A stretch of DNA of 64,000 nucleotides from Lunularia cruciata (lineage: Eukaryota > Streptophyta > Marchantiopsida > Lunulariales > Lunulariaceae): positions 56,989,945 to 57,053,944 of the forward strand of contig OX419755.1 of NCBI GenBank assembly GCA_948567375.1, in the 5' to 3' direction. Each line of letters starts with the position of its first letter. The first letter of the stretch is position 1. Both the position numbers and the translations under genes were made by a program. Of the stretch, positions 8,180-64,000 are shown in pieces. The notes beneath the pieces are model-generated. The model saw nothing but the letters and a program-made list of their open reading frames with translations. It was not told the DNA's origin and ran no database searches.

Positions 8180-9583
8180 TGTCTAGCTAGTGGTCCGGCC
8201 CAATCCATCATTGCACTTCTATTCTCGTGAGGACATCCCAAGATCAGTGTAGAAGCACTCGATAGGTTGTTTACTTAGATAAGGAATGTACGTCTTGAGA
8301 GAAGAAAGCAAGGAAGAAAGGAAAGGTCTGTCCTCCAAGCAACTTGAAAAGTCTGAAGACCAATTTCAATAGGAACTTTTCCATGCAAGTTGGATCGGCA
8401 CTTCTTCTTTGATTGCAATAGAAGCAGAAGAAGGAAGAAAGGATCAAAAGTTGATAGAAGGCTCTTCATCACATTACTACCAAATTCTTGTTGGAATAAA
8501 AGGAAGATAGGAGCTAAAATCTTGAGGAGATGGTGGCCATTGGATGGTGAATGTACTTGCACATTTTGTCTTCAGCTGCAGTCCACCTTTCTTCATGACA
8601 AGAGACTTAAGGTAGTACATTCTATCAAAGAAGTTGGTAATGAGGAGAGCTCAAGAGATAATTCTTTTGAAGAATCCAAAGAATTACTTTTTGGCATCTT
8701 TTATCAGCACCTATCAACCTTCTAGAGAGTGAAAGCATTTATAGACTTGCATGAGGTAATGCATTGCTTCACATAAGGCTCAAGTGTGGCTAGTCAACAT
8801 CAAGCTCAACAGCATGGGACAAGCATAGTTAAAGTAAGAAAGGATTTTGCACCTCCTTGTAGCTAGCCCACGTTTGAGAAGAACCTGTAAGGAAAATATT
8901 TTGTAGTGTCTATTGTCCGTTGCAAACACATTGTGTACGCTCATTTTGATGACAAGACTATTGATGGTGAAGTATGTAGGCAGCAATATTCTACTTTCCT
9001 ATTGGCAATGAAGTCAAGAGTTAAAACAACAACTTGCAAAATGTCTTTAAACTACTTGACGCTAGCATGCCTTAGTAATCTGCAGTTTTGCAAAAAGATA
9101 ATTCATTATCATGTAGCCTGAAGATCTATACAATCCTTATCCAGATTTCTTGAGCGAGTCCCGTAGTGAACTTTTGCATATATACCGGTAGAATTCCTCC
9201 TCAATTAAAGGTTTGTTGTTGCACTAACAAAGACAAGCAAGAAGTAGAACCAGAAGAGAGTCATTGGGGGAGAAGTCTTAGACTTATGAATGTGGTATAG
9301 AATTCAAGGTTTTGAACCCCCTTGGAATTCAGTTTGTAACTTTTGACTTAGGACTCAAATGAATGATCTATTTAGTGTGTTGGAAAGCTTATTTTCAGGG
9401 TTACAAGTTGATGCAACTAGATGTTGAATTTGATTCTTTGAAGAAGCTCCTATAAAATGATTTCCATCTTATGATCCACTCCTCTAAGTATTGGAGTTTT
9501 AAGGAGGAAGGTTCAGGGACTCAAGAGGAGTCTCTCAGTATACAATAGCCTCAATAGTACTTGTAGAGCAGAAGAAAGTCAAG

Positions 9584-9908: not shown

Positions 9909-10093
9909 CATTATGGGTACGCTCTTTGTCATGCGTATATACATTTCTACACAACATACATTGTTGTCAACATCACACACTATAGAAGCACAACTCACAC
10001 ATAAGTCATACATGGACTCTAAAGTACCACAATCAATCAGTTTGGTTACATAACTCAAATCACACTCAATCAGATCAGTACTTGATCTAATCC

Positions 10094-10593
10094 TCCATAA
10101 TTGTGGTACTTTAGAGTCCATGTATGACTTATATGTGAGTTGTGCTTCTATAGTGTGTGATGTTGACAACAATGTATGTTGTATAGAAATGTATATACGC
10201 ATGACAAAGGGCATACCCACATTGTCACAAATCATATTGATCATCCAAAAGATCGATATCCTCATCAACATAAACTATGTTTGTTGAAGAGCCTTCATCA
10301 ACCTTTCCTTTGCCCTTAGCTTTAGACTCCTTCTTCACATGGTCTACTTTGCCACATCCCCAACAAGTCACTTGTTTCCTCTCCTTGGACTTGCCTCTAG
10401 ACTTAGATCTAGACCTGACCTTGCTTTTCCCCTTAATACCATCATTAGTCTTCCATTGAGGTCTCCCACATTGGACAACCAAAGCATTGCCTGGAGTAGA
10501 AGATGATAATAAGGTTGCAACAACTTTCTGTTGCAAGTCATCCGTAAGTATAGTTGTTGTCACCTCTTCAAAGTTAATAGTCTTACAATACAT
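10094..10593 (-). repeat. Inverted duplicate of the copia-gag/LTR junction
   Basis: This segment repeats, in reverse orientation, the sequence spanning the end of copia gag and the first LTR module to its left. The two arms face each other across about 60 bp, making a near-palindrome of roughly 9770-10400. The inverted copy keeps more gag than the left arm: frame 10225-10593 includes a basic KSKVRSRSKSRGKSKE stretch and CWGCGKVDHVKKES, a zinc knuckle with its last Cys changed to Ser. The junction itself is duplicated, so the inversion happened after copy A had inserted in gag. Confidence 0.8.
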
Positions 10594-10976
10594 TGCCAAC
10601 AATTGGGCATTGATTATAGTCAAGCCACACCCACTCTAGCCAAGAGACTCCAAGTGATGCTCACTAGCTTTCTATCCACTCTAGCCAAGAACTCAAAGGC
10701 TCAACAATAGAGAAGTGAGCTCTTTGGAGCTCCATTCCTAGGATATACTCTTGATTTTAACCTAGATCTCATCCCAACGGTCTCGTTGATGGCAAACCCG
10801 ATGGTGCAAACAATGCAAGTGATGATGTGCCTCACTATGAGTCAATACCTTGAACAAAAAATCTGACCGTCGGAAAGTAGTCTATGAGTAACTACCATAA
10901 TACTCTAACTACTATCACTACTACCTCAATGTCCAAGCAATCTAGATACGATGCTACAAATGGCATGATAGCTATC

Positions 10977-11682: not shown

Positions 11683-11957
11683 TTATCATGTGTATATACA
11701 TTGCTACACAACATACATTGTTGTCAATATCACACACTATAGAAGCACAACTCACACATAAGTCATAAATGGAGTCTAAAATGCCACAATTGCTCCCCTA
11801 GTTGGTGGTTAGGTCCCTCTAACTCAAATAGCCATCTACTCCAATTATATGGTATACCCTATGGTGGGCAAAAGATCAAGAGGCCATGTGCTATCAAACC
11901 CGGTCATTAGTTGCCTATCTACAATCTATACCATAAAAAGGATGAACCCGTTATAGA

Positions 11958-13060
11958 TCAAGTACATCTAGGACATACCCACTATCCTTGAGGAACCACC
12001 TTGAGGAGAGAAGTCATACATGCCATATGCCATACTCTCAAACAACTATCACACACTAACATAGTAGTAGCTCTACTAGAAGAACCGCATAACATACACC
12101 GCAAGCCTGCTCGTACAAGTGCCAAGCTTGGATCCATAATACCATCAATGTTTGGGAGGTGGCATGGCGCACAATTACACATATGATCCTTCTAAATAAC
12201 ACCATCACGTCCTTCCAACATGAGGACTCCAAATGGCAAAACCTCATGCACTCTCAAGATAGTGCGGCTGGTGGAAACATCAAGTGTCGTTGGTGTTGTT
12301 TGTTGTAGATATACATAGTCACTTGGATGAAATTGACGGATTGAGGATCTATAACCTCCTCCTCAATTCTCTATGCTGAGCAATTGCCAAGTTCTCAAAG
12401 GCTATTGGCATCACTCTCCAAAAGATCTCTACACATTGTGAACATGTGCTCATCCATACATTTGGATCATCCAAGTCCAAAACTACAATAGTATCTTGAC
12501 AAATGCTGCAAGTAAATCTGGATCTCATCTATAGAGTATAAAGTAAGGAGAGAAGGATGCTAAGGAGGCTTGCCGACTGAACCAAAACCCATGGCCAACC
12601 AAGGTAACTGGATATCCCAATCTCCCAAGTGGCCTCTCTACAAACCATACTTCCACAATCCTCTCTTCATTGTCTAAACCACTCTTTCTGCTAAGAGAGA
12701 GTGGTTTAGACAATGAAGAGAGATAGTATGATGATCAATCAAAGCCTTGTCATACAAGACCTGAAACTCTCCCAAGAACTATGTACCCTAATTAGTCAAA
12801 ACCTCAATTGATGTACCAAAATGACTAAGAACCCAATCCAAGAATGAGTAAGTTTTCCCTTCACTTGACTTGTCAAGAAGGGCCACTAACTCAATCCACT
12901 TGGAGAAGTGCTCCACCATCACCAAAATGTATCAATGAAGTCTCACAATCAATGGTAAAGGTCCAGCAAAGTCTAAACTCCAGTGGTAATTGAATCCCAT
13001 GATAGGTGATGGGTACAACTATGGCGTGTGAGCATTGAATGATGCTCTAACTAGATCACA
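11958..13060 (-). pseudogene. Copy A integrase and C-terminal PHD finger (decayed)
   Basis: The same protein as at 61431-62600 in copy B, with more damage. The PHD finger spans about 11961-12098: CMLC, CDSC, HMAC and CPRC are all present. The Gln of PQGQW is a TAG stop here (PQG-stop-W) while copy B keeps CAG. The integrase core carries frameshifts, and at 12661-12722 the sequence is replaced by an inverted copy of itself. The zinc-binding N-terminus of integrase lies near 13000-13150. Not functional. Confidence 0.75.
12661..12722. repeat. Perfect 25-bp inverted repeat within copy A integrase
   Basis: Arms 12661-12685 and 12698-12722 are exact reverse complements around 12 bases. Copy B has the left arm at the equivalent site, then about 30 different bases that would encode part of the integrase active-site region. 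The right arm in copy A has replaced them, a signature of templated repair or local inversion. Confidence 0.85.
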
Positions 13061-14151
13061 AACCACACATCTTGCAACAAACTGCTATACATTGGTCTGC
13101 ATACCACACCACCAATAATGACTTTGGAGTAAGCTATAAGTATGCTTTACTCCAAAATGTCCTAGCTCTTCATGAGCATGCATACCAAATATGGTCTCTA
13201 AGATGGAAATGATACTATTTGCAATCTACCATCCTCCCATATACAAAGAAGGTGTCTGCCCTCCAATCTAAACCGCTCGGCTTGTTGAAGAACACGGTCT
13301 CTCTCCTTGGTCCCATTTGTGCCACCTACAACACCAGTGCAAAGATAATCAATCACTAAGACATCATCATGAATTTCTTGTTGAACTGTACTACTATCTC
13401 CACTCTTTGGATTTGTGACATATATAACTCCTCTTGTATGTGCTGAGAGAGATACCACCAAAGCCTCAAAAAATATAAAAAGAAAGGCATATGCATGCCA
13501 ACCCCGCACCATCTACTTATCTATCTCACCATGCCAACATGCTCTGGTCTGATCCTACTGGTTAGGACATAGGTTTCTACTCAACCCATTTGCATCACAG
13601 TTCACCACTCTAGGCTTGTGAATAACCGTGAAATCATACTCTTGTAAAATCAGAGCCCATTGTGCAAACTTCCTTGAAAGCTTGTCAAACTCCATCAACC
13701 ACTTTAGTGGCTGATGATCAATGATGATAGTAACGGGGCTACCAAATAGGTAACATAGCATATTTCCGATGCCCTCTCTCTCATATGAACTATACTTTGC
13801 CTTTGTTGGATTGTTGGAGTGACTAACATAGGCCACCACAAACTCCTTCTCCTCATCATCATGTTGGGTGAGCACTACTCCAAGCTCCAACATACTCCAA
13901 GCTCCAATATACTCCAATCAATGTGAACCTGAAATGGTTGTCCTCTAATTGGTCTCCTCAAAATAGGAGCAGATGTCAACCTCTCCTTGAGCTCTACAAA
14001 AGCTCTCTCTTGCTCATCTCCCCAACACCACTCTTCTGTAAGCTTGGTCAGCTTTGTCAAGGCACTAAATCCTCAAAAAAAGCAGCAATAGAAGTTTGCC
14101 AATCCAAGGAATGCTTGCACTCTGCTCACATTTGTAGGTCAAGGAATACAC
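13061..14151 (-). pseudogene. Copy A RNase H and reverse-transcriptase connection
   Basis: The frame at 13555-13917 reads VVLTQHDDEEKEFVVAYVSH, then YSSYEREG and FGSPVTIIIDHQPLKWLMEF, which is the gypsy RNase H domain (VAYxSR...E...D.Q.LKWL). Upstream, 13875-14060 gives the connection region (EEWCWGDEQERAFVELKERL, then SAPILRRPIRGQPF). The same blocks occur in copies B and C. Stops and a frameshift near 13890 break it. The frame is cut at 14151 by the unclassified element. Confidence 0.8.
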
Positions 14152-22078: not shown

Positions 22079-22750
22079 GCAATAACCTCCACCTTGGTCT
22101 ATTGAACACCAAGTCCTCTAGGCTGGATAGTGTGCCCCAAATACTCAACCTGCTCATAGAAGAACCTACACTTCCTAGGATGTAATTTGAGTCCATGAGA
22201 TCTCAGCCTCTCAAACACATCCAACAATTGTCTCTCATGCTCCTCCATAGTAGTGTTATAGACAAAAATGTCATCAATATAACACCAAGCAAAATCCAAT
22301 CCAATAGGATCCTATCCATGACCCTCTAGAACTTAGCAAGAGCATTCTTTAACCCAAACAATAAGAACCTCCACTATAAAACACATCCTTACCGTGAGGA
22401 TCAATAGCATAGAATTTTGTCTTGGACTTATCTTCCTCCTTGATTAGCAATTGATGATATCTTACTTGAAGATCAAAAGTGTTGAAGACCTTTGTATGCC
22501 CAATCGCATCAAAGATCTCCTCTGGTGTAGGCATGGCATATTGATCAGCCCTATTATATCGATTGATAGGATGTAATCTCCACACATCTGCTTGTGTGTA
22601 GTTGCCATGCATATCTTTCTTGGTTGGCATCATTGTAGCTAATGCATACTCTCCATGTGAAATCTCCACCAAACCAACCTCAAAGAGATCACTACTCTAG
22701 CTCTAAATCAATGCTCTCTCCAAGTCACTATATTGATAGGGATGTCAAAA
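22079..22750 (-). pseudogene. Copy A reverse transcriptase (5' part)
   Basis: Minus-strand translation gives EISHGEYALATMMPTKKDMH, then VFNTFDLQVRYHQLLIKEED, FAWCYIDDIFVYNTTMEEHE and LHPRKCRFFYEQVEYLGHTI. These match copy C block by block; YIDD is the catalytic motif. Frames shift at about 22310-22350 and stops are present. Its downstream part continues at 14151 beyond the nested insertion. Confidence 0.85.
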
Positions 22751-23329
22751 AATTGGTGTATCACTAGTTAGCTCAATCTATTTACTAGATCCTTTTAGAG
22801 CACCTAAATCCTTCATACAGAAGGAAAAACAACTCATATATCTCCTTAAGAACCTCCAAACTCTCTGTCTTTCTCCTTTTGTAAGCATGATCCAAGATCT
22901 GGCTCCCAAGTATCCTTTGTAACTGCTATAGGAGTGGAAGATGTATTGACTAGCTATTAAATTGGACCCTTGGGAGCAGTAGTTTCATGCTCCCAAGCGC
23001 TAGAAATCCCAACCTCATTGTGAAAAACTACTTCCAATCTGGCTGCAAGCTCCATACATCCTCTAGCTGCATCCCAAGTAGACCAAGGATGTAATCCAAG
23101 TAGCCCATGCTCACCTGGATAGACTCATCCAAGTAGACCACTCTCCCTAGTAGCCACTGGCTATGTCCCAAGAATACCATGCCCACTTGGTCCATCACCC
23201 TCAACATGTGCTTGAATTGTCTCAATAGGCACAAAGCTCACAAGTGTCCGAGTGGTGATGCTTATCAAGTGCATCATATGCTACTCTACCAAACCAAGAC
23301 TCACAATTGAAGTCAAATAGCTTAGGTCC
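22751..23329 (-). pseudogene. Copy A spacer between methyltransferase and reverse transcriptase
   Basis: It corresponds to 30240-30880 of copy C. The minus-strand stretch 23028-23234 in another frame mirrors the nucleotide repeat seen there. No catalytic motif recognised. It is linker-like and varies between copies. Confidence 0.5.
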
Positions 23330-24290
23330 ATAGCTTGATCTAACACCTAATGCTTGGATGCCTCTAACACTATTGGAACAATGGTAATATTGATGCAAAA
23401 ACCCATTGTCCGCTCTCTCTTAGAGACGTTGGGCTCCACCAACTGTTGTAACTATGAGTCCCAAACCAGTCCATGACCTCCCTCCCAAAAAGCATGGGAG
23501 TTTGGGAAACTCAGAAGGTATGAAACACGGCTTTGGGCTGTCCAACTAGGTTCACCATTGTCATAGGTGACCTATCAGCTACTACCACCATCTAAGACTA
23601 ACGCCTAACATCCAAGATGTCATCAACAATGATGTAGTCTAGTCATTGAATTGCATCATAAGTGCATTGTAGAACCTCTTTGGGTAAGAGGTTCATCCAC
23701 CAAAGATGAAGGCAATGAGCCTGTGATCTCACTCTGGCTACATCTAACAACACAGCATGTCCATCCAAGAATGGACCTGATGCATACTTACCACCACTCG
23801 GGTGCAAGAATCACCCATCAAAGAGATGTTTTCCAAATGTAAGCTGGAGAAATAGATTGATGAATTTAGAAATATCATAGTATTCATAACATCTCCCAAA
23901 ACACACAAGAATAGAGATCCTAAAGACCCAAACCTCAGCCAATATGTGTATGTCTCTAACATGGCCATCCAAAAATCATCAAATGAACAGGTCCATATCT
24001 CTCTAGATCATGCACCACCATCAAGGAAATGTTTGTTGGTAGGTCTTTTAGATACTACTAACATTGGTAATAACTCAAGATACCAATAGGCCAAGTGTGC
24101 CACATGATGGAAAGAGATTCACCTAGCAATCTCATCTCTCTCCACATACAAGTACCTTTATACTCATATACTTGCCTGTAATACCGCAGCTAGTTTAGTG
24201 CTAATCCCACCAAACAACTCCAATAGACATACTCCCTCTATTGGATACTACCAAGCAATGAGTGTCATATTCAGAGGTGTCAAGGTAATC
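23330..24290 (-). pseudogene. Copy A cytosine-C5 DNA methyltransferase domain
   Basis: Minus-strand motifs in order: motif I LLELFGGISTKLAAVLQ (about 24180-24226), the acidic YLYVERDE segment, motif IV with GWPC (near 23959-23970), and a motif VI-like LENISLMGDS with Glu-Asn (23825-23836), then LDYIIVDDILDV and VADRSP near the C-terminus. Order I-IV-VI is the canonical arrangement. Copy A keeps Glu-Asn at motif VI where copy C has Glu-Ser, and GG in motif I where copy C has SR, so it is nearer the enzyme consensus although its frame is broken more often (a 1-base loss just before motif VI, several stops). Confidence 0.8.
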
Positions 24291-24737
24291 AACCCTGGAG
24301 GCTCATCCTCACATTAGTTGCCTAGTGGTACAAAGGCTCCACTCCAAGCCTATTGCACCAACTAATATGCATGTTGTTACAATGCCTCCTCTAAACTCCA
24401 CAATGGAACATCCAAGGTGGATGGAATGATCCCACTCATATTCCAAATCCAAGTGATCTCCTTTGGTACTGGAGTATCCTTTGCATGGGCATTCCTTTCC
24501 AATAAATTACCAGGCCAAGTAACAAAACCACTCAAAGTTGAAACTAAAGCCGCTATGGTCTTGGACTATAGTGAGCCAAGATTGCCATTGATAAAGCGTA
24601 CTTGTAGGTGACATGCTCGTCCCTCACTAGACTGCCAACCTGGTCTATAGGAGGTTGTCTCCTCCCAATAGTCAATACTAAAACCCATGGTGTACAACAC
24701 TGCTCCCCCAATTAACACATCATATGACTAAACTATG
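24291..24737 (-). pseudogene. Copy A protease C-terminus and region before the methyltransferase
   Basis: The nucleotide sequence matches 28855-29330 of copy C in reverse complement (for example CCCATGGTGTACAAC with its upstream CAATAGTC block). It ends at ACTAAACTATG, where copy C's LTR starts. Decayed. Confidence 0.7.
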
Positions 24738-26063
24738 TGTCACGCCATTTGTAGTGCCGCATCTAGATGCTTGGACACTGGAGTTCTAGTGATAGTAGTT
24801 TGAGTTATTTCAGTAGTTTCTCAGAGACTACTTTCCGACGGTCAGATTTTGTGTTCGGGGTACTGACTTCATGGTGGGGCCCACTGTCACTTTGCACCGT
24901 TTGGACCATTGAGTGTGCCGTCAGCGGGGCCGTTAGGGTTTTAGAGCTAGCTCGAGTCTAGGGGGTATAGTTTTGAAGTGAGCTCTAGAGAGCTCACTTC
25001 TCTGATGTTGAGCCTTCGAGTTCCTGGCTATGGTGGACAGAGGCCGGCGAGCGTCACCTGGATTCTCTATGCTTGAGTGGGTGTGGCTTGACTATAATAG
25101 GTGCCCAGTTGTTGGCAGTTTATAGAGTGACAGATCAAGTACTGATATGAGTTGTGTTGAGTTGAGAGTGGTAAGCAATCTGATTACATCAAAGAAGTGA
25201 AGTCAGGGGGAAATTGGGTGCAAGAACTGTGAATGTTGGTGGTATCTCCAAGCTCGGTGGATCGTTGGTAGCTTGATTCAAGTTTAGTGTTTCCCTAGTG
25301 TGCAGAAGCTCAATCGATTGATGCAAATTTGGCAGTTAGGCAGTCGATGTGCGGAAGCGCTGGCCAAATTTTGAGCAAAGAAAGAGCAAATTTTGAGCAA
25401 TGGTTGTCATTTTGAGCTCAAGAGGTGAAGGCAGGACCAATTTGGTGCGAGTTGGGCTCAAAAAGTCAAATTGAAAGTGGAGTTGGGAAGCTCTTCTCAT
25501 GAATTTATGATTTGGAAAAACCCGTGTTGTCAATTTGGCTCGAGTGGAAAGTTAGCGGGGGATTTGGCGGACAGCCAACTTTAGGGTTTACGTCAGATTT
25601 TGGCCAGATTTGGAGGAGTTTTGCTAGTTTAGAGGACTTTCACATATTTGGAGAAGTTTTGCCAATTTTAGAGGAGGTTTGAAGTGGCAACAAGAAAGGT
25701 CTCATTTGGGAATTTAGAGGCTTCGAGGCATAGGGCTATGGGCTATGAGAGGCTACGAAGGCCTAGAAGGGCCAGCAAGCCAGCTTGCTGGCGTGAGGCT
25801 AGCTAGTTTAGAGTAGATCTTGGTCATTGGTTGGAAAAATCTACCTTTCCTGCTAGATTATGCGTAATAGGGTTTGACACCTAGATCTCTTGTTCCTAGA
25901 CTGGTGCCCTAGCCAATTGGTCCACCCTCACTTGTTGTCATAGTGAATGTGCCATTGTTATCTATACACATGTAGCTTTGGCTAGGAGAGGCAGTTTGAT
26001 CCCATTCTTGGTAACCCTGGTAGCTTAAGACTTAGATACAAATTGTTCTTATGTCAAATGCCA
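24738..26063 (+). repeat. 5' LTR of copy C (about 1.3 kb)
   Basis: It starts TGTCACGCCATTTGTAG and probably ends AAATGCCA just before a primer-site-like sequence. The first 450 bp or so match the LTR core of copies A and B, sharing GCTTGGACA and GTGAGCTC/GAGCTCACTTCTC blocks. The rest does not match them, so copy C belongs to a different subfamily. A TATA-like TATAATAGG is near 25094. The right boundary is inferred, because no second LTR survives. Confidence 0.6.
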
Positions 26064-26065
26064 AA

Positions 26066-26076
26066 TGGTGGCAGAG
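26066..26076 (+). other. Primer-binding-site-like sequence of copy C
   Basis: TGGTGGCAGAG three bases after the presumed LTR end resembles the initiator-Met site TGGTATCAGAG with two changes. Confidence 0.5.
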
Positions 26077-26380
26077 TCAGTCCCGTGTTGTGTTATGAGA
26101 TGGAGGGTTTTTGTTTAGATTTCTTATGATTGGACCCCCTCCATTCTCAGCTTCCTGTTTGTGCACCACATTTGTGTGAGGTGTCATGACTTTTGAGCGT
26201 TGGTGCTCTGGTGTGCTCTCGGTGGTGAGGCTGGAGTGATGACCAGTCAGACTACCTTTGTTTCTCTCCGGTGAGGTAGGAAGTGATAACCTGTAGACCA
26301 TGAGAGTGCATGTTATGATGGTAGGTTATAGGTTGCACTTTCCCCTAGTGTAGTTATCTCGGTTAGAGTTACATTAGTGG

Positions 26381-28166
26381 GTGGTGTTGGCACTTGGTGA
26401 GGCACTTGCGGTTGCGACTTGCGGTTACAGTTGGTGGTTTGGGTTTGTTGTTGCAATTACTTTGTCACGACGGAGTTCTTTGGAGATTCTAGAGGAGTTA
26501 GCCCTGAAGTATGCAATGGGTTTACTCGGAGTGGTGCTCGGTATCAACCTGTATCTCAGGTCCCAATGAGGGAGGAGATTGACTCTGAGTTGGAGTTTGA
26601 CACAAGAGCTGATTCAGTTGAGAGTGCACTTGGTATGTCCGCACCATTGTTGTGGGACATGGACAAGATTTATGGGGCCTCCAAAGGCCCTAGGCGTTAC
26701 TCTAGTACAATGGGTACCATTGAGTTGGATGACTTCATCTAGGAGTTTGACAGTTGGTGTGATCTACAGCAGATGCGGAACCCGACTTTGTTCACACCCT
26801 TCATGGCATGGAAGGGGTTGTTTAAGCATCTGGAGGGTCCGCCGATGGATGACTACCATGAGTTCAGGAGAGCTCATTTGGAGGAGATTGAGTTATCGAG
26901 ACAGTATTGGTCTCCACACTATGTCTCCATCACTTCAGGTTCAGTGGCCAGGAGTAGATCGGCTGTACCTACGAGTTCTAGCTCGAGTATTGTGGGTAGA
27001 GCTAGTGGAGGTGCACTAGCTGGAGATAGTGCTACTACGAGTGGAGGTACCACTGCAAGAGGTGATTTGGTATCGGGGTTTAACCCCATGGTGGAGTTCT
27101 TCCTGTGTTTGAGGCAGAACATAAGGGAGTGCGGACTGACAAGCTGAGGAGCTTGCAAGAGTTCCAGCAAAAGGCTGGAGAGAGCCTATGCAAGGCATAC
27201 ACTCGCATGAGGCGGCTGATCAGTTTCACTCAAGGAGTTACTGAGGCCCAAGCAGTCCAGTTTTGGTATGGGATACTAGACAGGGAGTTGCAACATAGAG
27301 TTCGTGATGTTACGTTGTTGCAGGCTACTTCGCCCACTTTGGCAGTAGTCTTTGGTTTGGCTGAGCATATTGAGCTCAATATAATGGAGGAGAGAGAGGT
27401 GACATCTGGATTTGGTAGGGAGACTTCATCCACGGCTGTGACTTTTTCTAGAGTGCAGTAGAGTGCACCACGCTCAGTTGGTTTTTGAGGATAGGGTAGA
27501 CAGCCTAGATCCTATGGAGCGAGTGGAGGGCCTAGTGGAGTTAGACCCTTACTCTTATTTTCGGGTCAGCAGCAGCCAATGAGTGGTGGTGTTGCTTGTT
27601 GGACTTGTGGTGGACCTCACCATAAGAGAGAGTGTAATCAGGGCAGCAGACTTGATACCTTTGGTGCATCACAGCCAGCACAAAGGCAATGTGAGCATTG
27701 CCACAAATTTGGCCACACTAGTGACCGGTGTTTTGACCTACACTCGGAGTTACGAAGTGGTAGGGCTGCTATGGCAGGTAGTAGAGGAGCTCCAGTTCAT
27801 GGAGGACGAGGTGGTAGAGGTGGTGGTAGAGGATCTACACCTAGTAGGGGTGCAGTACCTGCCCTTACTTCTGACACAGCTATGGCTACTCGGATTGAGC
27901 AGTTGGAGCAGAGATTGGCTAGTATAGCTATTGCTCAGAGGAGATCAGATTCGGGTGCTGAGGCTTCCACCTCATATGTTGGTGATAGAGATGCTTTGGA
28001 CTTCATGTGCAGAGCAGCACAGGTGGATGCATCTGTAGTAGTGACTAGGAGTGTTGTACATGCTCCAGAGCCTAGAGGAGCATTAGTGGAGTTGGACCCA
28101 CAGAGAAGAGAGGTTGGGAGACAGGTCAGACTTCCCCAGTCTTTCACGCTATCTGAGGCATTGTAG
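26381..28166 (+). pseudogene. gag: Copy C gag with two CCHC zinc knuckles
   Basis: The N-terminal part (26419-27060) is low-conservation, with an acidic stretch and a Ser/Gly/Ala/Thr-rich linker. After a frame change near 27100 comes the Retrotrans_gag domain: LRSLQEFQQKAGESLCKAYT, TRMRRLISFTQGV and QFWYGILDRELQHRV. Two zinc knuckles follow, CWTCGGPHHKREC (27597-27635) and CEHCHKFGHTSDRC (27690-27731), both with full C-x2-C-x4-H-x4-C spacing. Then a Gly/Arg-rich segment (GGRGGRGGGRGSTPS), often RNA-binding, and a short helix. A stop at 27459-27461 and one at 28164-28166 interrupt the frame. Confidence 0.85.
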
Positions 28167-28835
28167 ATGACATCCATGGTTCCTAGACGTCCTAGTGCAG
28201 GTTTAGTAGGTGGTGATGGAGTACATGATGGACTACTTGCTAGTCAGTCACCTGCTACTACAGAGATTGAGTCTAGCATGATGTTGGGGGCGGCTCAGCT
28301 GATTATGCAGTGTCCTCTGTTTTTAGCCAGTGACATGTTTACATTGGGAGTTGACCCAGCTCCAGTGTTTTGGTTGGCTGCCACGTTGTGTGAGAGTAGG
28401 GGTGGTGCAGTTCCTACTACTAAAGCAGAGGTGGTTGGTAGTGGAGCTAACTTGGTTGAGGAGCATGGGATCCGTTCAGCAACCAGTGGTTTATGGCAGG
28501 TAGCAGTGGCTAGATTGGAGGAGTTGCTAGCTAGACCGGCCTTTGAGAGAGTGCGGTTTACACTTGGTGTTGTCCTATTGGATAACCAGAGGGGGATTTT
28601 TTGTTTGGTGGGACCTTTAGGGAAGGTTTATACACCACAAAGAGTCTTGTTAGACTCTGGTGCGCAGCCCCTTATGTTGGGGAAGGTTACAATTGTCGGT
28701 CTGGAGTTACAGAAGACCGATGTGGAGAGGTATCTATTTCAGATCCAGACATCTTAAGGTGGTGGTTCGACACAGTACATCACATGTGGGGAGCTTGTTG
28801 TCCAGGTTTAGCCTGGTCATCCGACTGATAGCTCG
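28167..28835 (+). pseudogene. Copy C retropepsin (protease)
   Basis: The active-site triad is intact: VLLDSGAQPLMLG, with Asp-Ser-Gly at 28653-28661, followed by the strand VTIVGLELQKTDVERYLFQI. The protein before it (28167-28600) is a low-conservation linker. A stop at 28755-28757 and one near 28800 break the frame. The family's C-terminal segment (YDGLVGGVVLYPMGFRIDYW) continues at 28876-28935. Confidence 0.8.
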
Positions 28836-29315
28836 GTGGTGAGAGCTCAGGCTATTGCGACCATAGCTGAGTCATATGATGGGCTAGTTGGGGGAGTAGT
28901 GTTATACCCCATGGGTTTCAGGATTGACTATTGGGAGGAGACAGCCTCTTATAGACCTGGTTGGCAGTCTGGTGAGGGATGGGTATGTTGTCTACTAGTA
29001 CGCTTCAATAGTGGCAGTCTTGGCTCACTACAGTCCCGGACCATGGCAGCATCAGTTTTAGCTTTCAGTGGTGCAGTTACTTGGCCTGGTGACTTTTTGG
29101 AGGAGAATGCCCATGCAGAGGATACTCCAGTACCAGAGGAGATCACTCGGCTTTGGAGTACAAGTGGGATTGTTCCATCCACCTTGGATGTTCCATTGTG
29201 GAGTTCAAAGGAGGCATTGCAGCAACATGCAGATCAGTTGGTGCAACAAGCTTGGAGTGGAGCCTTTGTACCATCAAGAGATGAGTGTGAGGATTAGCCT
29301 CCAAAGGCAATTGCT
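28836..29315 (+). pseudogene. Copy C region between protease and methyltransferase
   Basis: It opens with the protease C-terminal segment (LVGGVVLYPMG), then YRPGWQSGEGW and about 100 residues of unknown role: an Ala/Gly stretch, acidic EENAHAEDTPVPEEITRLW, and KEALQQHADQLVQQAW. The last may be a helical linker leading into the methyltransferase. One stop (29295-29297) falls before it. Confidence 0.6.
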
Positions 29316-30250
29316 TTGACACCTCTGGATACCACACTCATTGCTTGGCAGTATCCAATAGAAGGGATATGCTTATTGGAGTTGTTTAGTAGGATCAGCA
29401 CCAGACTAGCTGCGGTGTTACAGGTGGGTATCCGAGTACAGAGGTACTTGTATGTAGAGAGAGATGAGACTGCTAGGCGAGTCTTTCTACATCATGTGGC
29501 ACACTTGGCCTATCAGTATCCCGAGTTATTACCAATGTCCGCAATCAGAGGTTACCAAAAGGCCCTACCAGGAGACATTTCCTTACTGGGGGCGCATGAC
29601 CTAGAGAGACATGGACCTATTCACTTGGTGATTTTTGGATGGCCATGTCAGGGACATACACGTGCTGGTAGAGGATTAGGTCTTTAGGATCCTCATTCTG
29701 GTGTGTTTTGGGAGATGTTACGGATACTACGACATCTCTAAGTTCATCAGTCTGTTTCTCCAGCTTACCTTTTGGAGAGCATTCCTTTGATGGGTGATTC
29801 TCGCACTAGAGTGGTGGCAAGTACACATTAGGTCCATTCTTGGATGGGACTTGTTGTATTGTTAGATGCAGCCAGAGTGGGATCATGGGCTCATTGTCTT
29901 CATCTTTGGTGGACGAATCTCTCACCCAGAGAGGTTCTACAGCGTGCTTATGATGGGATTCAACGACTGGACTACATTCTTGTTGATGATATCTTGGATG
30001 TTGGGCGTCAGTCTCAAACAGTGGTAGTGGCTGATAGGTCACCTGTGGTAGTGGTGAACCTAGTTGGATAGCCTAGAGCTGCATTTCCCACACTCATGAG
30101 TTTCCCAAGCTCTCATGCTTTTCAAGAGGGAGTACTTGGACTTGTTTGGGACTCACAGTTACAGCAGTTGGTGGAGCCCAACGCTGAGATGAGAGAGCGG
30201 GCGATGGGTTTTGCACCGATATTACCGCTATTCCAGCAGTGTCAGAGCCA
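29316..30250 (+). pseudogene. Copy C cytosine-C5 DNA methyltransferase domain
   Basis: The domain sits in the pol polyprotein between protease and reverse transcriptase. Motif I: LLELFSRISTRLAAVLQ (29373 on), with the Gly pair of the SAM loop changed to Ser-Arg in this copy. Motif II: YLYVERDETARR, the acidic ribose-binding position. Motif IV: GWPCQGHTRAGRG (29637 on), with the catalytic Pro-Cys at 29643-29648. Motif VI-like: LLESIPLMGDS (Glu at 29775), where DNMT3-type enzymes have ENV. The C-terminus has MRERAMGFAP (about 30190-30225), resembling the ERIFGFP region of DNMT3. Order I-IV-VI is canonical, unlike the rearranged plant DRM enzymes. Stops at 29685, near 29740, at 29837 and 30069, and a frame change near 30235 make this copy inactive. 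These enzymes move a methyl group from SAM to cytosine C5. Confidence 0.85.
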
Positions 30251-30880
30251 TCCAGGCGTCAAGTGTTAGGTCAAGCTATGGACCTGAATTGTTTGACCTG
30301 GATTGTGAGCCTTGGCTTGGTAGAGCAGCATAGGATGCACTTGATAGGCATCACCACTTGGACACTTGTGAGCCATGTGCCTATCGAGACGATTCAAGCA
30401 CATGCTGGGGGCGATGGACCGAGTGGACATGGTATTCTTGGGACACATCCAGTAGCTACTAGGGAGAGTGGTCTACTTGGAGTCCATCCAGGTGAGCATG
30501 GGCTACTTGGACTACACCCTTGGTCCACATGGGATGCAACTAGAGGACGTGTGGAGCTTGCAGCCAGAGTGGAGGGAGTTTTTCACACAGAGGTTGGGAC
30601 CTCTAGTGGTCGGGAGCATGATACTATTGCTCCCAAGGGCCCAGTGTAGCAGTCAGTCAGTACGTCTTCCACTCCTACTATAGTTACAGAGAATACTTGG
30701 GAGCCAGATCTTGGACCCAAGCTTATTGGAGAGGAAAGACGGAGAGTTTGGAGGTTCTTGAGGAGTCACACAAGTTGTTTTTCCTTCAGTATGAAGGATT
30801 TGGGTGCTCTGAAGGGACCTGGTATACGGATTGATCTGACTAGCGACACACCAATTTTCCGACGTCCTTATTGATATAGT
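30251..30880 (+). pseudogene. Copy C spacer between methyltransferase and reverse transcriptase
   Basis: About 135 codons (30239-30649) without a known domain. It includes a short repeated motif: GHGILGTHP, SGLLGVHP and HGLLGLHP. It ends in Ser/Thr-rich sequence before the WEPDLGPKLIGEE segment that leads into reverse transcriptase. Reading continues in frame 2, different from the methyltransferase. Confidence 0.55.
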
Positions 30881-31690
30881 GAGATGGAGAGGACATTGAT
30901 TAAGAGCCGGAGTAGTGACCTTTTTGAGGCTGGTTTGGTGGAGATTTCACATGGAGAGTATGCATCAGCGATAGTAATGCCAACCAAGAAGGATATGCAT
31001 GGCAACTATACAGATAGGTGGATGTGTGGAGATTACCATCCTATCAACCAACAGACCAGGTCTGATCGGTATGCCATGCCTACATCGGAGGAGATTTTTG
31101 ATACAATTGGGCATGCAAAGGTCTTCAGTACTTTGGATCTTCAAGCGGGATATCATCAATTGCCAATCAGAGAGGAGGATAAGTCCAAGATAGCATTCTG
31201 GGCTATTGCTCCTCACGGCAAGGATGTGTTATATCAATGGAGGTTCTTACCATTTGGGTTAAAGAACACTCTTGCCTAGTTCCAGAGGGTCATGGATAGG
31301 ATCCTAGCTGGATTGGATTTTGCTTGGTGCTATATTGATGACATTTTGGTTTATAGCACTACTATGGAGGAGCATGAGAGACAATTGTTGGAGGTGTTTG
31401 AGAGGTTGAGATCTCATGGACTCAAATTACATCCTAAGAAGTGTAGGTTCTTCCACGAGCAAGTTGAGTATTTGGGTCACACTATCTACCCCGGAGGACT
31501 TGGTGTCCAGTAGACCAAGGTGGATGCTATTGCGCGTATTCCTCAGCCTACAGATGTGAGCAGAGTGTGAGCATTCCTTGGGTTGGCGAACTTCTATCAC
31601 CGCTATGTTAGAGGATTTAGTGCCATTGCGAAAGCCTTGATAAAGCTGACCAAGCTTACACATGAGTGGTGTTGGAGAGATGAGCAGGAA
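30881..31690 (+). pseudogene. Copy C reverse transcriptase
   Basis: Ty3/gypsy-type reverse transcriptase. Blocks: LFEAGLVEISHGEYASAIVM, PTKKDMHGNYTDRWMCGDYH, VFSTLDLQAGYHQLPIREED, FLPFGLKNTLA and the catalytic YIDDI (31331-31345), then LHPKKCRFFHEQVEYLGHTI. Three single stops (after NTLA, after LGVQ and after DVSRV) interrupt an otherwise open frame, and the frame changes near 31690. Confidence 0.9.
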
Positions 31691-31955
31691 AGAGCGTGGA
31701 GAGGTTGACATCTGCTCCTATTTTGAGGAGACCGATCAGGGGACGACCATTTCAGGTTCACACTGATTGGAGTATGTTGGGGCTTGGAGCGGTGCTCACC
31801 CAGCATGATGATGAGGAGAAGGAGTTTGTGGTGGCCTATGCTAGTCGCTCCAACAATTCAGCGGAGGTGAAGTATAGTTCATATGAGGGAGAGTGCTTGG
31901 CAGCAGTTTGGGCAGTAGTACATTTCCGATATTACCTATTTGGTAACCCTTTCAC
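31691..31955 (+). pseudogene. Copy C RNase H (truncated)
   Basis: Reads ERLTSAPILRRPIRGRPFQV, HTDWSMLGLGAVLTQHDDEE and YASRSNNSAEVKYSSYEGE, ending FRYYLFGNPFT at 31955. The first catalytic Asp and the Glu (SSYEGECLA) are present. Past 31955 the sequence is copia, so the rest of RNase H, the integrase and the PHD finger were lost. Confidence 0.85.
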
Positions 31956-33003
31956 TAAGCACCTCGTCAATGGACCAAGAGGTTTGATGAGTTTATGCAT
32001 GCTCAGGGTTTCAATAGGAGCTTATTTGATCCTTGTGTGTACATGAAACCGGTGAGTAATAAGACCTTTGCTTTTATTATTCTTGTGATGTATGTGGATG
32101 ACATGTTGATAGTTGCCAAAGAAAGATCTGAGGTAAACAAGCTCAAGGCGCCCTTAAGTTTGGAGTTCAAGATGAAGGATCTAGGGTTGGCCACAAGGTA
32201 CTTACTAGGTTCAACATGGAGAACTGTAAACCAGTAAGTACTCCTCTAGCTCCTCATTTCAAGCTTTCAACGGCATGTTGTCATATTGATGTCGTGGAGA
32301 AGGGTCTGATGGCTGACATTCCTTATGAGAAGGCTATTGGGAGTCTTATGTACTTGCTCGATGACTTGCACTAGACCTGATCTTGCCCTAGCAATGGGTA
32401 AGGTGTGAAAGTATATGTCAAATCTAGGAAGGACACATTGGGAAGCAATTAAGTGGATTCTTAGGTATTTGAAAGGTACATTAGACTATGGGCTCTTATT
32501 TGATAGAAGATCAATGAATGTTGAATCACTAGATGGGTATGTAGATGCTGAATAATGATAAGATCTAGACAAGTGTAGGTTAATAACAGGGTATGTATTC
32601 ATACTTGGTGGTGGGTGCATTAGTTGGAGATCTACCTTGCAAATGTGTGTTGCATAGTCTACTACAGAAGTAGAGTATGTGGCAGTAGTAGAAGCAGAAA
32701 AAGGAGGCAATTTGGTTGGATAGACTTGTGGTTGAGATGGGGCTAATGCATGGTAATGTAATGCTTCATTGTGATAGTCAAAGTGCTTTACACCTAGCTG
32801 AAAATCAGGTGATGGACAGTAGAGTTAAGCATATAAACATTAGATACTACTTTCTTAGGCAAGTTGTGTCTGAGAAAATGTTTGATCTAGTCAAGATTGA
32901 TGGTAAGCTCAACCCAGCTGATGCCTTTACCAAAGTCATACCTTTAGAAAGTTTCTCTATGCATCGTGCTACCTTGCAGGTTGTGCAAGTGGAGCATGAG
33001 TAG
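31956..33003 (+). pseudogene. copia-1 reverse transcriptase and RNase H
   Basis: Reverse transcriptase starts mid-domain, APRQWTKRFDEFMHAQGFN, with CVYMK, the catalytic YVDDMLIVAKE and FKMKDLG. The following QIDYAEKIL-like region is deleted, and PYEKAIGSLMYL (near 32320) leads to RNase H. The last block, 32716-33003, reads VMLHCDSQSALHLAENQVMD, RVKHINIRYYFLR and NPADAFTKVIP, the copia RNase H C-terminus. Several stops and shifts occur between. Confidence 0.88.
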
Positions 33004-60601: not shown

Positions 60602-61261
60602 TGTCATGTGTATATACATTGCTACACAACATACATTGCTGTCAACATCATACACAATAGAAGCACAAATCACACATAAGTCATACATAAACTCTAAAGT
60701 GCCACAATAATCAGATCATTTACAACTTGAATCAATCAAACTTAGATCAGTAATTGATATGATCCTCAACAACTTGCCAACAACTGGGCACTGATTACAA
60801 TCAAGCAACATGCACTCTAACTAAGAGACTCCATGTGATGCTCGTTGGCTTTCTTTCCACTCTAGCCAGGAACTTGAAGGCTCAACATCAGAGAAGTGAG
60901 CTCTTTGGAGCTTCACTTCCAATGTATACTCCTGCTTTAGACCTAGGCCTCATCCCAAATGGTCCTGCTGACTGCACACCCGATGGCACGGATGGTGCAA
61001 GTGGCGGTGGGCCCTACCATGAAGTCAGTACCCTAAACACAAAATCTGACTGTTAAAAAGTAGTTTATGAGTAACTGCCAAAATGCCTCTAACTACTAAT
61101 ACTAGAACTCCAATGTCCAAGCAATGTAGATGCGACGCTACAAATGGCATGACAGCTATCATGCATATATACATCACTACACAACATACATTGTTGTCAA
61201 CATCATACACAATAGAAGCCCAACTCACACATAAGTCATACATAAACTCTAAAATGCCACA
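60602..61261 (-). repeat. 3' LTR of copy B (module arrangement A-B-A)
   Basis: In element sense it runs from TGTGGCATTTTAG at 61261 to ACACATGACA at 60602. A module of about 105 bp is repeated directly at both ends (61152-61261 and 60602-60708) around a core of about 440 bp. The core also begins TGTCATGCC, so the true LTR start could be either point. I prefer 61261 because a purine tract abuts it. Confidence 0.7.
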
Positions 61262-61276
61262 ATCGCCCTCCTAGCT
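61262..61276 (-). other. Polypurine tract of copy B
   Basis: In element sense GCTAGGAGGGCGAT lies directly before TGTGGCATTTTAG. Copy A has CTAGGGGAGCAAT at the same place (11789-11802). Confidence 0.65.
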
Positions 61277-61430
61277 GGAGGTTAGGTCCCTCTAACTCCA
61301 AATAGCCATCTACTCCAAATATATTGTATACCCTATGATGGGCAACAATCAAGAGGCCAAGTGCTGTGGAGCCCCATTGTTTGTTGCTTGTCTACAATCT
61401 ATACCATATAAAGAATGAACTAGCTATAGG

Positions 61431-62740
61431 TCAAGTACATCTAGGACATAACCACTGTCCCTGAGGAACCACCGTGAGGGGAGGAGTCATACATGCCATA
61501 TGCCATCCTCTTGAACAACTATCACACACTAACATAGTAGCAGCTCCATTAGAACAGCCACATAACATACATCTCAAGCCTGCTTGTACAAGTGCCAAGC
61601 TTGGGTCCATAGTACCATCAATGTTTGGGAGGTGGCATGGTGCACAATTGTGCACATGATCCTTCCAAACAATACCATCACGTCCTTCTAACACAAGGAC
61701 TCCAGATGGCAAAATCTCATGCATTCTCAAGATAGTGCGGCCTATCAAAACATCAAGTGTCGTTGGTGTTTTCTGTTGTAGATAAACATAGTCTCTTGGA
61801 TGAAATTGATAGATCAAGGGTCTATAACGTCCTCCTAAAATGGTAACATAGCACAAAGTATCTCTATGCTGAGCAATTGCTAAGTTCTCAAAGGCCATTG
61901 GCATCACTCTCCAAAAGATCATTGCTTGCTGAGAACATGCGCTCATCCATACATTTGGGTCATCGAAGTCCAAGACTACAGTAGCATCTAAACAAATGGC
62001 TGCAAGTAAATCTGGATCTTGTCCATAGAATAGAAAGTATGGAGAGAAGGATGCTAAGAAGGCTTGTCGGCTAAACCAATAGCCCATGGCCAACCAAGGT
62101 AATTGGAGATCCCAATCTCCCAAGTGGCCTCTTTGCAAACCATACTTTTGCAATCCTCTCTTCATTGTCTAAACCACTCTCTCTACTAAGCCATCTGCCT
62201 CAAGGTGATATCGGGAGTTAGTACGATGATCAATCAAAGCCTTGTCACACAAGACCTGAAACTCTCCTAAGAACTTTGTACCCTGATCAGTCAAAACCTT
62301 AGTTGGTGCACCAAAATGACTAAGAACATGATCCAAGAACAAGTAAGCTGTCCTTTCACTAGACTTTTCAGGAAGTGCCACCAACTCAATCCACTTAGAG
62401 AAGTTCCACCATCACCAAGACATACTGATGATGTCTTACAATTAGCGGTAAAGGTCCAGCAAAGTCTAAACTCCAACGGTAATCCAATCCCATGATAGGT
62501 AATGGATGTAACTGTGGTGTAGGAGCATTGAATGATACTCTAACTCAATCACAAACCACACATCTAGCAACAAGCTACTACACCTTGATTTGCATACTAT
62601 GCCACCAATAATGACTCTAGAGTAAGTTGTATGTATGCTTTACTCCAAAATGTCCTAGCTTTTCATGAGCATGACAGACCAACTATGGTCTTTGAGATGG
62701 AAGTGGTACTACTTGCACTCTACCATCCTCCCATACACAC
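61431..62740 (-). pseudogene. Copy B integrase with C-terminal PHD finger
   Basis: Integrase: a zinc module with two His and two Cys (HEKLGHFGVKHT, VARCVVCD), Asp in WSLDFAGPLP, Asp in VLTDQGTKFLGEF and Glu in DGLVERVV, the D,D-35-E triad. A 244-codon frame (61431-62165) carries the rest: the YRPLIYQFHPRDYVYLQQ barrel, IGRTILRMHEILPSGVLVLE, then a PHD finger at 61434-61571. Its C4HC3 ligands are CMLC, CDSC, HMAC and CPRC, with Trp two before the last Cys pair (QWLC). It closes at TGA right after CPRCT. PHD fingers bind histone tails, often H3K4me, so it takes the place a chromodomain has in chromoviruses. One TAG (62169-62171) and a 2-base loss near 62395 break the frame. Confidence 0.87.
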
Positions 62741-63815
62741 AAAAGGTGTCTGTACTCCAATCTGAGCCGTCTAGCTCATTGAAGAACACGGTCTCTCTCT
62801 TTGGCCCCAACTGTGCCACCCACAACACCGGTGCAAAGATAGTCCATCACTAAGACATCATCATGAATGTCTTGCTAAAATGTACCAATATCTTCACTCT
62901 CTAGATCTATGACCTCAATAACTCCTCCTGTATGCGCTGAAAGAGAAACCACCAAAGCCTCAAAAAATATACAGAGAAAGGCAAATACATGCCAACCTGA
63001 CACCATCTCCTTATCTGTCTCACCATGCCAATGTGCTCCGTTATGATCCTATTGGCCGAGATATGGGTTTCTACTCAACCTATCTACATCACGGTTCACC
63101 ACTTTAGGTCTATGAACAACCATGAAATCATACTCCGGTAAAATCAAAGCCCATTGTGCAAGCTTCCTTGAAAGCTTGTCGGACTCCATCAACCACTTTA
63201 GCGGCTGATGATTAGTGATGAGAGTGAAAGGGTTACCAAATAGGTAACATTGGAAATGTGCTACTGCCCAAAATACTACCAAGCACTTGCCCTCATATGA
63301 ACTATACTTTACCTCCGCTGAATTGTTGGAGCAACTAGCATAGGCCACCACAAACTCCTTCTCCTCATCATCATGTTGGGTGAGCACTGCTCCAAGCCCT
63401 AACACACTCCAATCAGTATGGACCTAAAATGGTCGTCCTCTGATGGGTCTTCTCAAAATAGGAGTAGATATCAACCTCTCCTTGAGCTCTATAAAAGCTC
63501 TCTCTTGCTCATCTCTCTAACACCACTCCTGTGTAAGCTTGGTCAGCTTTGTCAAGGCCTTGGCAATGGCACTAAATCCTCTAACTTAGCAGCGATAGAA
63601 GTTTTCTAACCCAAGAAATGCTTGCACTCTGCTCACATCTGTAGGCCAAGGAATATGTGCAATAGCTTCCACCTTGGTCTGCCAAACACCAAGTCCTCTA
63701 GGGTAGATAGTGTGACCCAAATACTCAACCTACTTGTGGAAGAACCTACACTTCCCAAGGTGTAATTTGAGGCCATGAGATCTCAACCCCTCAAACACCT
63801 CCAACAAATGAAACT
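62741..63815 (-). pseudogene. Copy B RNase H and reverse transcriptase C-terminal part
   Basis: RNase H frame 63049-63405: LGLGAVLTQHDDEEKEFVVA, YASCSNNSAEVKYSSYEGK, FGNPFTLITNHQPLKWLMES and PKVVNRDVDRLSRNP. Upstream, the connection (LKERLISTPILRRPI, with TDWSVL) and reverse transcriptase end. The region 62741-63048 links to integrase. It aligns with copies A and C throughout. A jump at about 63810 removes most of the reverse transcriptase. Confidence 0.8.
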
Positions 63816-64000
63816 CAAGAACCTCTAAACCCTCCATCTTTCCTCTCCAATAAGCTTGGCTCCAAGATCTGGCTCCCAAGTATCCTCTATAACTATTGTA
63901 GGAGTAGAAGACATACCGACTGGCTGCTACACTGGGCCCTTGGGAGCAATAGTGTCATGCCCTCAACCACTAGATGTCCCAACCTATGTGTGAAAAACTC

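Follow-up and report, generated by a model that had tools for sequence, protein, structure and literature searches.

Retrotransposons are usually the targets of DNA methylation and not its source. Elements that carry a DNA methyltransferase (DNMT) of their own have nevertheless been described, and KnitGypsy-Dnmt3, SymbioDIRS-Dnmt3 and SymbioLINE-Dnmt (de Mendoza 2018; PMC5890265) bear out the dinoflagellate and charophyte precedents that a first-pass annotation of the present locus had cited. In its main text and legends, that paper describes KnitGypsy-Dnmt3 of the charophyte Klebsormidium nitens as having a DIRS-type repeat structure with gypsy domains and as being under purifying selection (Ka/Ks < 0.2), with fewer copies in K. 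nitens than in Symbiodinium, and gives the repeat layout of SymbioDIRS-Dnmt3 as A-coding region-B-A-B. The same text reports that DNMTs encoded by retrotransposons methylate CG sites de novo and proposes methylation of the cDNA, so the idea of self-methylation is not new. A 2025 survey (PMC12344493) places, in its main text, DNMT3 members inside streptophyte and dinoflagellate retrotransposons and may count proteins such as those described below.

We analysed a stretch of 64,000 nucleotides (the window), in which a cytosine-5 methyltransferase domain had been claimed at 29316-30250 between the protease and the reverse transcriptase (RT) of a retroelement. This was confirmed, and the domain, of DNMT3 type and broken in this copy, was found to span 29298-30337 on the plus strand, as judged from profile, homologue and PDB matches and from an alignment of genome copies. 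Translated with X at its four stops, 29316-30250 matched Pfam DNA_methylase (PF00145) with E=2.5e-4 and NCBIfam dcm with 5.9e-4 (19.6 bits, far below the cut-off of 100.65), and its top sequence match in PDB was DNMT3A (1e-4), with DRM2 reaching only 0.22. The anticipated profile match with the Pro-Cys aligned, here to that of DNMT3A, was thus obtained, although at 21.0 bits the window copy alone stayed below the Pfam cut-off of 22; its scores are marginal, which is no surprise for a decayed copy. Landmarks located in the domain were motif I (29373), GWPCQ (29637-29651, with the Cys at 29646-29648), motif VI (ESI, 29775-29783; LES in this copy and LEN in others, such as L010 and L014), and a C-terminal GF segment, ERAMGF, which pairs with ERVFGF of DNMT3A in the alignment. 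The zinc knuckles (27597-27731), the protease (Asp 28653), and the methyltransferase do share a frame, as had been stated, but that frame is crossed by eight stops (28164, 28755, 28809, 29295, 29685, 29739, 29829, and 30069) and is shifted within the methyltransferase near 30188-30215; the window copy is therefore a pseudogene.

This plus-strand copy (24738-31956) is 91.9% identical across 6.9 kb to L014, a copy from elsewhere in the genome. It begins with the terminal repeat A1 (24738-25186, starting with TGTCACGC; 93% identical to repeat A of L014), followed by a gag region (26380-27970; 94% identical to copy L010) with two CCHC zinc knuckles (27597-27635 and 27690-27731), which were read by eye from the translation; Retrotrans_gag scored 17.8 bits there, below its cut-off. 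The aspartic protease (28584-28960), with LLDSGAQP and its Asp codon at 28653-28655, was recognized by alignment to Marchantia P0079, and Asp_protease_2 was named only in relatives (P0104, below cut-off, and P0103, in a precomputed annotation). Beyond the methyltransferase, the gag-protease-DNMT frame is separated from the RT frame by TAG-CAG-TCA (30647-30655), at the same site as in the copies fetched from the genome. There follow the RT (30855-31649; PF00078 with E=1.6e-6 and 28.5 bits, where the cut-off is 29.6; 94% identical to L014) and an RNase H (31650-31956; PF17919, 1.1e-27), truncated at a Ty1/copia junction whose break point was set by comparison with L014. Ty1/copia-like RT and RNase H pieces, in a by-eye reading, are fused to the broken gypsy RNase H at 31957-33003; a Pfam scan of 32692-33000 within this part named nothing.

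Further members of the family lie on the minus strand of the window. One is a second, older copy running from protease to RT (22079-24736; 84% identical to L014), with TAA at the stop site and a broken DNMT domain of its own (23272-24301), which is 82% identical to L014 versus 93% for the plus-copy domain. The others are remnants of the A and B repeats (9924-10976, by comparison with L014), a fragment from the end of RT through RNase H and integrase up to the B repeat (11686-14149; 85% identical to L014 6467-8966), and a fragment (60602-64000; 89-91% identical to L014) in which 60602-63810 runs from RT into the 3' repeats and 63814-64000 holds the stop region. An Rfam scan of the window returned 0 matches.

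Unlike the broken window copy, copies with open frames exist elsewhere in the genome. A family search of the assembly (565,766,749 bases, 74 contigs) gave 123 scored places among 2,161 candidates, all above the cut-off and many in long open frames, while a 32-base pattern of the catalytic site, with at most three mismatches, occurred 2,853 times (reversed control, 0). From the 123 places we hand-picked 20 copies (10 kb each), all with open frames of at least 660 amino acids, and counts of intactness among them are therefore no sample of the genome; the DNMT domain was free of stops and indels in 10 and carried a stop or an indel in the other 10. The element is ordered A1, gag, two CCHC knuckles, protease (LLDSGAQP), DNMT, TAG, RT, RNase H, integrase, PHD finger, B1, A2, B2. 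Gag to DNMT form frame 1 (up to 1,428 amino acids), which ends at the TAG, and RT to the C-terminal PHD finger form frame 2 (up to 1,037 amino acids). The earlier placement inside a Ty3/gypsy pol was thus right about the kind of element; the enzyme, though, closes the gag-protease frame before the TAG and is not part of the RT-integrase frame. For frame 2 of L014, Pfam named RVT_1, RNase H, H2C2, rve, and PHD (PF00628, 2.2e-10). When frame 1 was scanned in L010 and L014, DNMT alone was named at E<=0.05, with no gag, knuckles, or protease, the identity of which comes from motifs read by eye, the weak gag match in the window, and relatives.

The TAG at the boundary of the two frames was present in all 20 fetched copies and in the plus copy of the window, and in 19 of the 20 it stood in the context TAGCARYYA, which we take to be a read-through context of the tobacco mosaic virus (TMV) type. 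Given this constancy of site and context, the stop is unlikely to be a product of decay. Counted from where the LGQAMDL motif begins, Marchantia P0087 and P0089 and Calypogeia P0090 also end, after 98 to 100 residues, compared with 127 in L014. As evidence to the contrary, at least six database proteins (P0065, P0092, P0093, P0098, P0107, and P0155) continue from the DNMT into RT or integrase; in these six the stop may be absent, or may have been lost in gene models, some of which may be spliced. At the other end of frame 2, the PHD finger closes the integrase in 19 of the 20 copies (8554-8691 in L014). Its nearest solved counterparts include the PHD fingers of CHD4, DPF2 (ubi-d4), DPF3, KDM5B, and PHF21A, several of which are presumably readers of the histone H3 tail.

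The ends of the element combine features of different retroelement classes. The repeats are arranged as A1 (449 bp), coding region, B1 (108 bp), A2, and B2, with the B repeat in two copies in 18 of the 20 fetched elements; in L014, A stands alone at the 5' end and B-A-B occupies 8862-9526 at the 3' end. A plain pair of long terminal repeats (LTRs) at both ends was not found in the fetched copies, nor, by eye, did the bases after repeat A show the TGG start of a standard tRNA primer site. The termini are of the TG...CA type (TGTCACGC...GCACGACA), and a 4-bp target duplication was present in 13 of the 16 copies with both ends located, compared with 0 of 240 cross pairs. Such ends together with a 4-bp duplication are what is expected of a DDE integrase. 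The Jukes-Cantor divergence between A1 and A2 ranged from 0.002 to 0.034 across 14 copies and was 0.108 in a fifteenth, L012 (whose match is not an A repeat) and L010, L013, L017, and L025 (no pair) being left out.

A protein search with the window enzyme returned 85 homologues (best, 1.5e-128), and a search tuned to long proteins added 23 relatives; a profile search, in which 8,000 candidates were scored, gave 353 matches at E<=1e-5, with 120 of these listed. All 17 members of the family alignment matched PF00145 at E<=0.001 (best, 2.3e-14), and together with the homologues this settles the identity of the domain as a methyltransferase. Those homologues for which an organism is named come from bryophytes throughout (Calypogeia fissa, Sphagnum troendelagicum, Sphagnum tenellum, Marchantia polymorpha, Marchantia paleacea, and Riccia sorocarpa). 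The occurrence in a plant-type genome claimed earlier therefore holds and is wider than proposed, taking in Marchantia, Riccia, Calypogeia, and Sphagnum as well. Such near kin in liverworts and Sphagnum, along with the DNMT3-, DRM-, and CMT-like genes of the genome itself, suggest that the host is a bryophyte and perhaps a liverwort. No Klebsormidium protein was among the matches listed in the homologue searches or among the best 120 of the 353 profile matches. In Marchantia P0092 and P0098, Pfam RT, RNase H, and DNMT domains lie in a single chain.

Local identity to these relatives was determined by part: for Marchantia P0089 it was 63% in each of gag, knuckles, and protease, 72% in the DNMT, and 47 to 52% in the linkers; for P0087, 71% in the DNMT, 43% in the protease (part of which is missing), and 36 to 48% in the linkers; for P0092, 60% in the protease, 69% in both DNMT and RT, 82% in RNase H, and 39 to 48% in the linkers; and for Calypogeia P0090, 73% in the DNMT and 33 to 48% in the linkers. 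Riccia P0065 was 71% identical in the DNMT part and 84% in the RT part. More distant are the metagenomic P0104 (gag 23, protease 46, DNMT 52%), the divergent P0155 (DNMT 43, RT 48%), and Sphagnum P0107 and P0096, whose DNMTs were 50 and 59% identical with gaps, which counts against the reading we favor below. One member of the retrotransposon enzyme family (P0116) is deposited as a DNA cytosine methyltransferase of "Candidatus Obscuribacterales bacterium" and is perhaps eukaryotic DNA within a bacterial bin. In a profile scan of viral contigs, one of 69 pattern matches (L054, a 31.7-kb IMG/VR contig) coded for a relative, with 33% identity in the best segment.

The motifs of the family enzyme follow the order I-IV-VI-VIII-X. 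The controls taken from the host genome were two DNMT3-like genes (L001 and L004), a CMT-like exon (L003), and a true DRM (L002), in which motifs VI-X precede I-IV. The enzyme is therefore not a rearranged DRM, and descent from DRM enzymes, against which the first-pass annotation had argued from the canonical I-IV-VI order, can be rejected. By profile and fold the enzyme is nearer to DNMT3 than to DRM, DNMT2, or bacterial enzymes, and the predicted fold, modeled from 75 sequences (an earlier model from 17 was poor, with a pLDDT of 45), is that of DNMT3. Over 20 retrotransposon members, conservation was 1.00 for the Pro and 0.95 for the Cys of motif IV, 1.00 for the Glu-Asn of motif VI, and 0.90 and 1.00 for the two Arg of motif VIII; motif X reads GQAMD, not the GN/GR of DNMT3, which counts against the favored reading. 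The retrotransposon enzymes formed one clade (100/76, SH-aLRT/UFBoot), separate from the DNMT3 genes of the host genome, and the nodes linking that clade to host DNMT3 and to DNMT3A had 54/40 and 33/40. The first, motif-filtered tree was built without 6 of 14 retrotransposon proteins and the second without 4 of 23 (P0091, P0033, P0155, and P0110). A recent capture of the genome's own DNMT3 was rejected. On motifs, profiles, and predicted fold, the enzyme is a C5 cytosine methyltransferase of DNMT3 type that appears catalytically equipped.

We then determined how selection has acted on it. Over the 190 pairs formed by the 20 copies, which had been chosen for open frames, the DNMT had a mean dN / mean dS of 0.36, and the first 480 codons of frame 2, which cover RT and some of RNase H, had one of 0.29. 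Variants common to at least three copies gave 0.25 and 0.20, respectively, and singletons, which we infer to be mostly postinsertion decay, gave 0.67 and 0.54. The enzyme is under purifying selection. The plus copy of the window differed from L014, a sister copy and not its ancestor, at 433 positions, 274 of them C-to-T or G-to-A, with rates of 78/400 in CG, 110/726 in CHG, and 86/2,403 in CHH contexts. This pattern, nearly as pronounced in CHG as in CG, suggests plant-type methylation followed by deamination, and hence that the window copy was methylated, whatever the agent; it is silent on self-methylation because host enzymes yield the same on any silenced plant transposon. The ratio of observed to expected CpG was 0.15 in the window at 35000-60000, 0.34 in the window copy, and 0.41 to 0.51 in the frames of L014; the background outside the main element is strongly CpG depleted.

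A methyltransferase conserved about as well as RT, in several bryophyte genera and in thousands of copies, argues strongly that the element benefits from its enzyme. We consider it probable that this high-copy Ty3/gypsy family employs a catalytically equipped DNMT3-type enzyme that is copackaged and marks the element's own new DNA copies, methylation of its cDNA being the likeliest role that the sequences point to. The frame layout leads us to infer that the enzyme would be produced together with Gag-protease, as the major product, that RT-integrase-PHD would be made in a smaller amount by occasional read-through of TAG-CAR-YYA, and that both products would be packaged together. The protease would then release the enzyme, which would methylate the newly made double-stranded cDNA, either inside the particle or during integration, so that each new copy would arrive premarked. 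Such an early mark could conceal the cDNA from host sensing of DNA damage or foreign DNA; alternatively, it could reduce the harm done by new copies, making thousands of them tolerable to the host. For its part, the PHD finger may guide integration by reading the histone H3 tail. More tentatively, and with clearly less confidence, the family could be an ancient bryophyte, perhaps streptophyte-wide, lineage that combines a methylation writer (the DNMT3-type enzyme at the Gag level) with a histone reader (the integrase PHD finger), thereby selecting the chromatin it occupies and marking it; its thousands of copies could supply the host with de novo methylation and shape the methylome.

The enzyme could instead work after integration on the chromatin of the insertion site, with PHD finger and integrase targeting an H3 state and the DNMT silencing the copy or its neighborhood. 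Chromoviruses carry a chromodomain at the very place, the integrase C terminus, where this family has its PHD finger, and the presumed H3-tail readers among the nearest solved PHD fingers fit such targeting, as does the fact that cellular DNMT3 enzymes also act from chromatin. We regard it as unlikely all the same, since the DNMT belongs to the gag-protease frame and not to the RT-integrase frame, so that most of the enzyme would be separate from the PHD part. Doubtful, too, is a domain that no longer methylates DNA and is retained within Gag for nucleic acid binding or assembly, or methylates RNA: the conserved residues of motifs IV, VI, and VIII and the predicted DNMT3 fold speak against it, even though motif X deviates from the DNMT3 form and the SymbioLINE-Dnmt tested in yeast gave, according to the main text of PMC5890265, no de novo DNA methylation, RNA being suggested there.

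That the domain is a functionless passenger, a captured fragment of a host DNMT3 gene, seems very improbable. The stops that riddle the window copy and the damage in half of the fetched copies are what it would lead one to expect, but purifying selection within the genome, conservation at the level of RT in Marchantia and Calypogeia, and a single clade apart from the genome's own DNMT3 genes are not. Chance motifs in a gag-pol linker, for which only the window copy's 1-bit shortfall could be adduced, are rejected with near certainty in view of the homologues, the 17 of 17 PF00145 matches, the DNMT3A alignment, and the predicted fold. If the enzyme is active, as the favored reading of a packaged, self-marking methyltransferase implies, such elements could be providing bryophytes with de novo methylation that has gone unnoticed, and "DNMT" genes in such genomes would have to be counted with care. 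Since Marchantia is a genetic model, the question is directly testable there. Relatives in other streptophytes could be recognized by a clear set of features, namely, a PHD finger, a stop ahead of RT, and split repeats.

Compared with known systems, the family shares the order gag/protease/RT/RNase H/integrase, TG...CA ends, and a short target duplication with Ty3/gypsy LTR retrotransposons, but not their plain LTR pair. It has split direct repeats in common with DIRS elements; a tyrosine recombinase was not found, frame 2 of L014 having rve and H2C2. Chromoviruses likewise join Gag-protease-RT-RNase H-integrase to a chromatin-reader type of domain at the integrase end and differ in that this family has a PHD finger, an extra DNMT, and split repeats; a Pfam scan of frame 2 of L014 at E<=0.05 found the PHD finger and no chromodomain. 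From cellular DNMT3 enzymes (human DNMT3A/B and the genome's own L001 and L004) the retrotransposon members are set apart by their separate clade, and the Pfam scan of the L010 and L014 frames, unlike cellular DNMT3, gave no PWWP or ADD domain. The dinoflagellate elements SymbioDIRS-Dnmt3 and SymbioLINE-Dnmt are, as the main text of PMC5890265 presents them, also retrotransposons with DNMTs, the DIRS type with A-coding-B-A-B repeats, but they are tyrosine-recombinase DIRS or LINE elements, whereas the present family, of the Ty3/gypsy type, has a DDE integrase and makes 4-bp duplications. Closest is KnitGypsy-Dnmt3, which, compared by text and legend, shares a DNMT3-type enzyme in a Ty3/gypsy polyprotein, DIRS-like repeats, and purifying selection. 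It comes from a charophyte, whereas the host of the present family is a bryophyte-like land plant in which the catalytic-site pattern matched 2,853 times; the present family further differs in having its enzyme in the gag-protease frame before a TAG and a PHD finger on the integrase. The main text of PMC5890265 does not contain "PHD" and uses "stop codon" once, for premature stops in Symbiodinium. As far as the main texts of the open-access literature searched go, four features are new: the occurrence across bryophytes, the number of copies, the enzyme's position ahead of a stop of read-through type, and the PHD finger; by its description the family looks like the bryophyte counterpart of KnitGypsy-Dnmt3 at high copy number.
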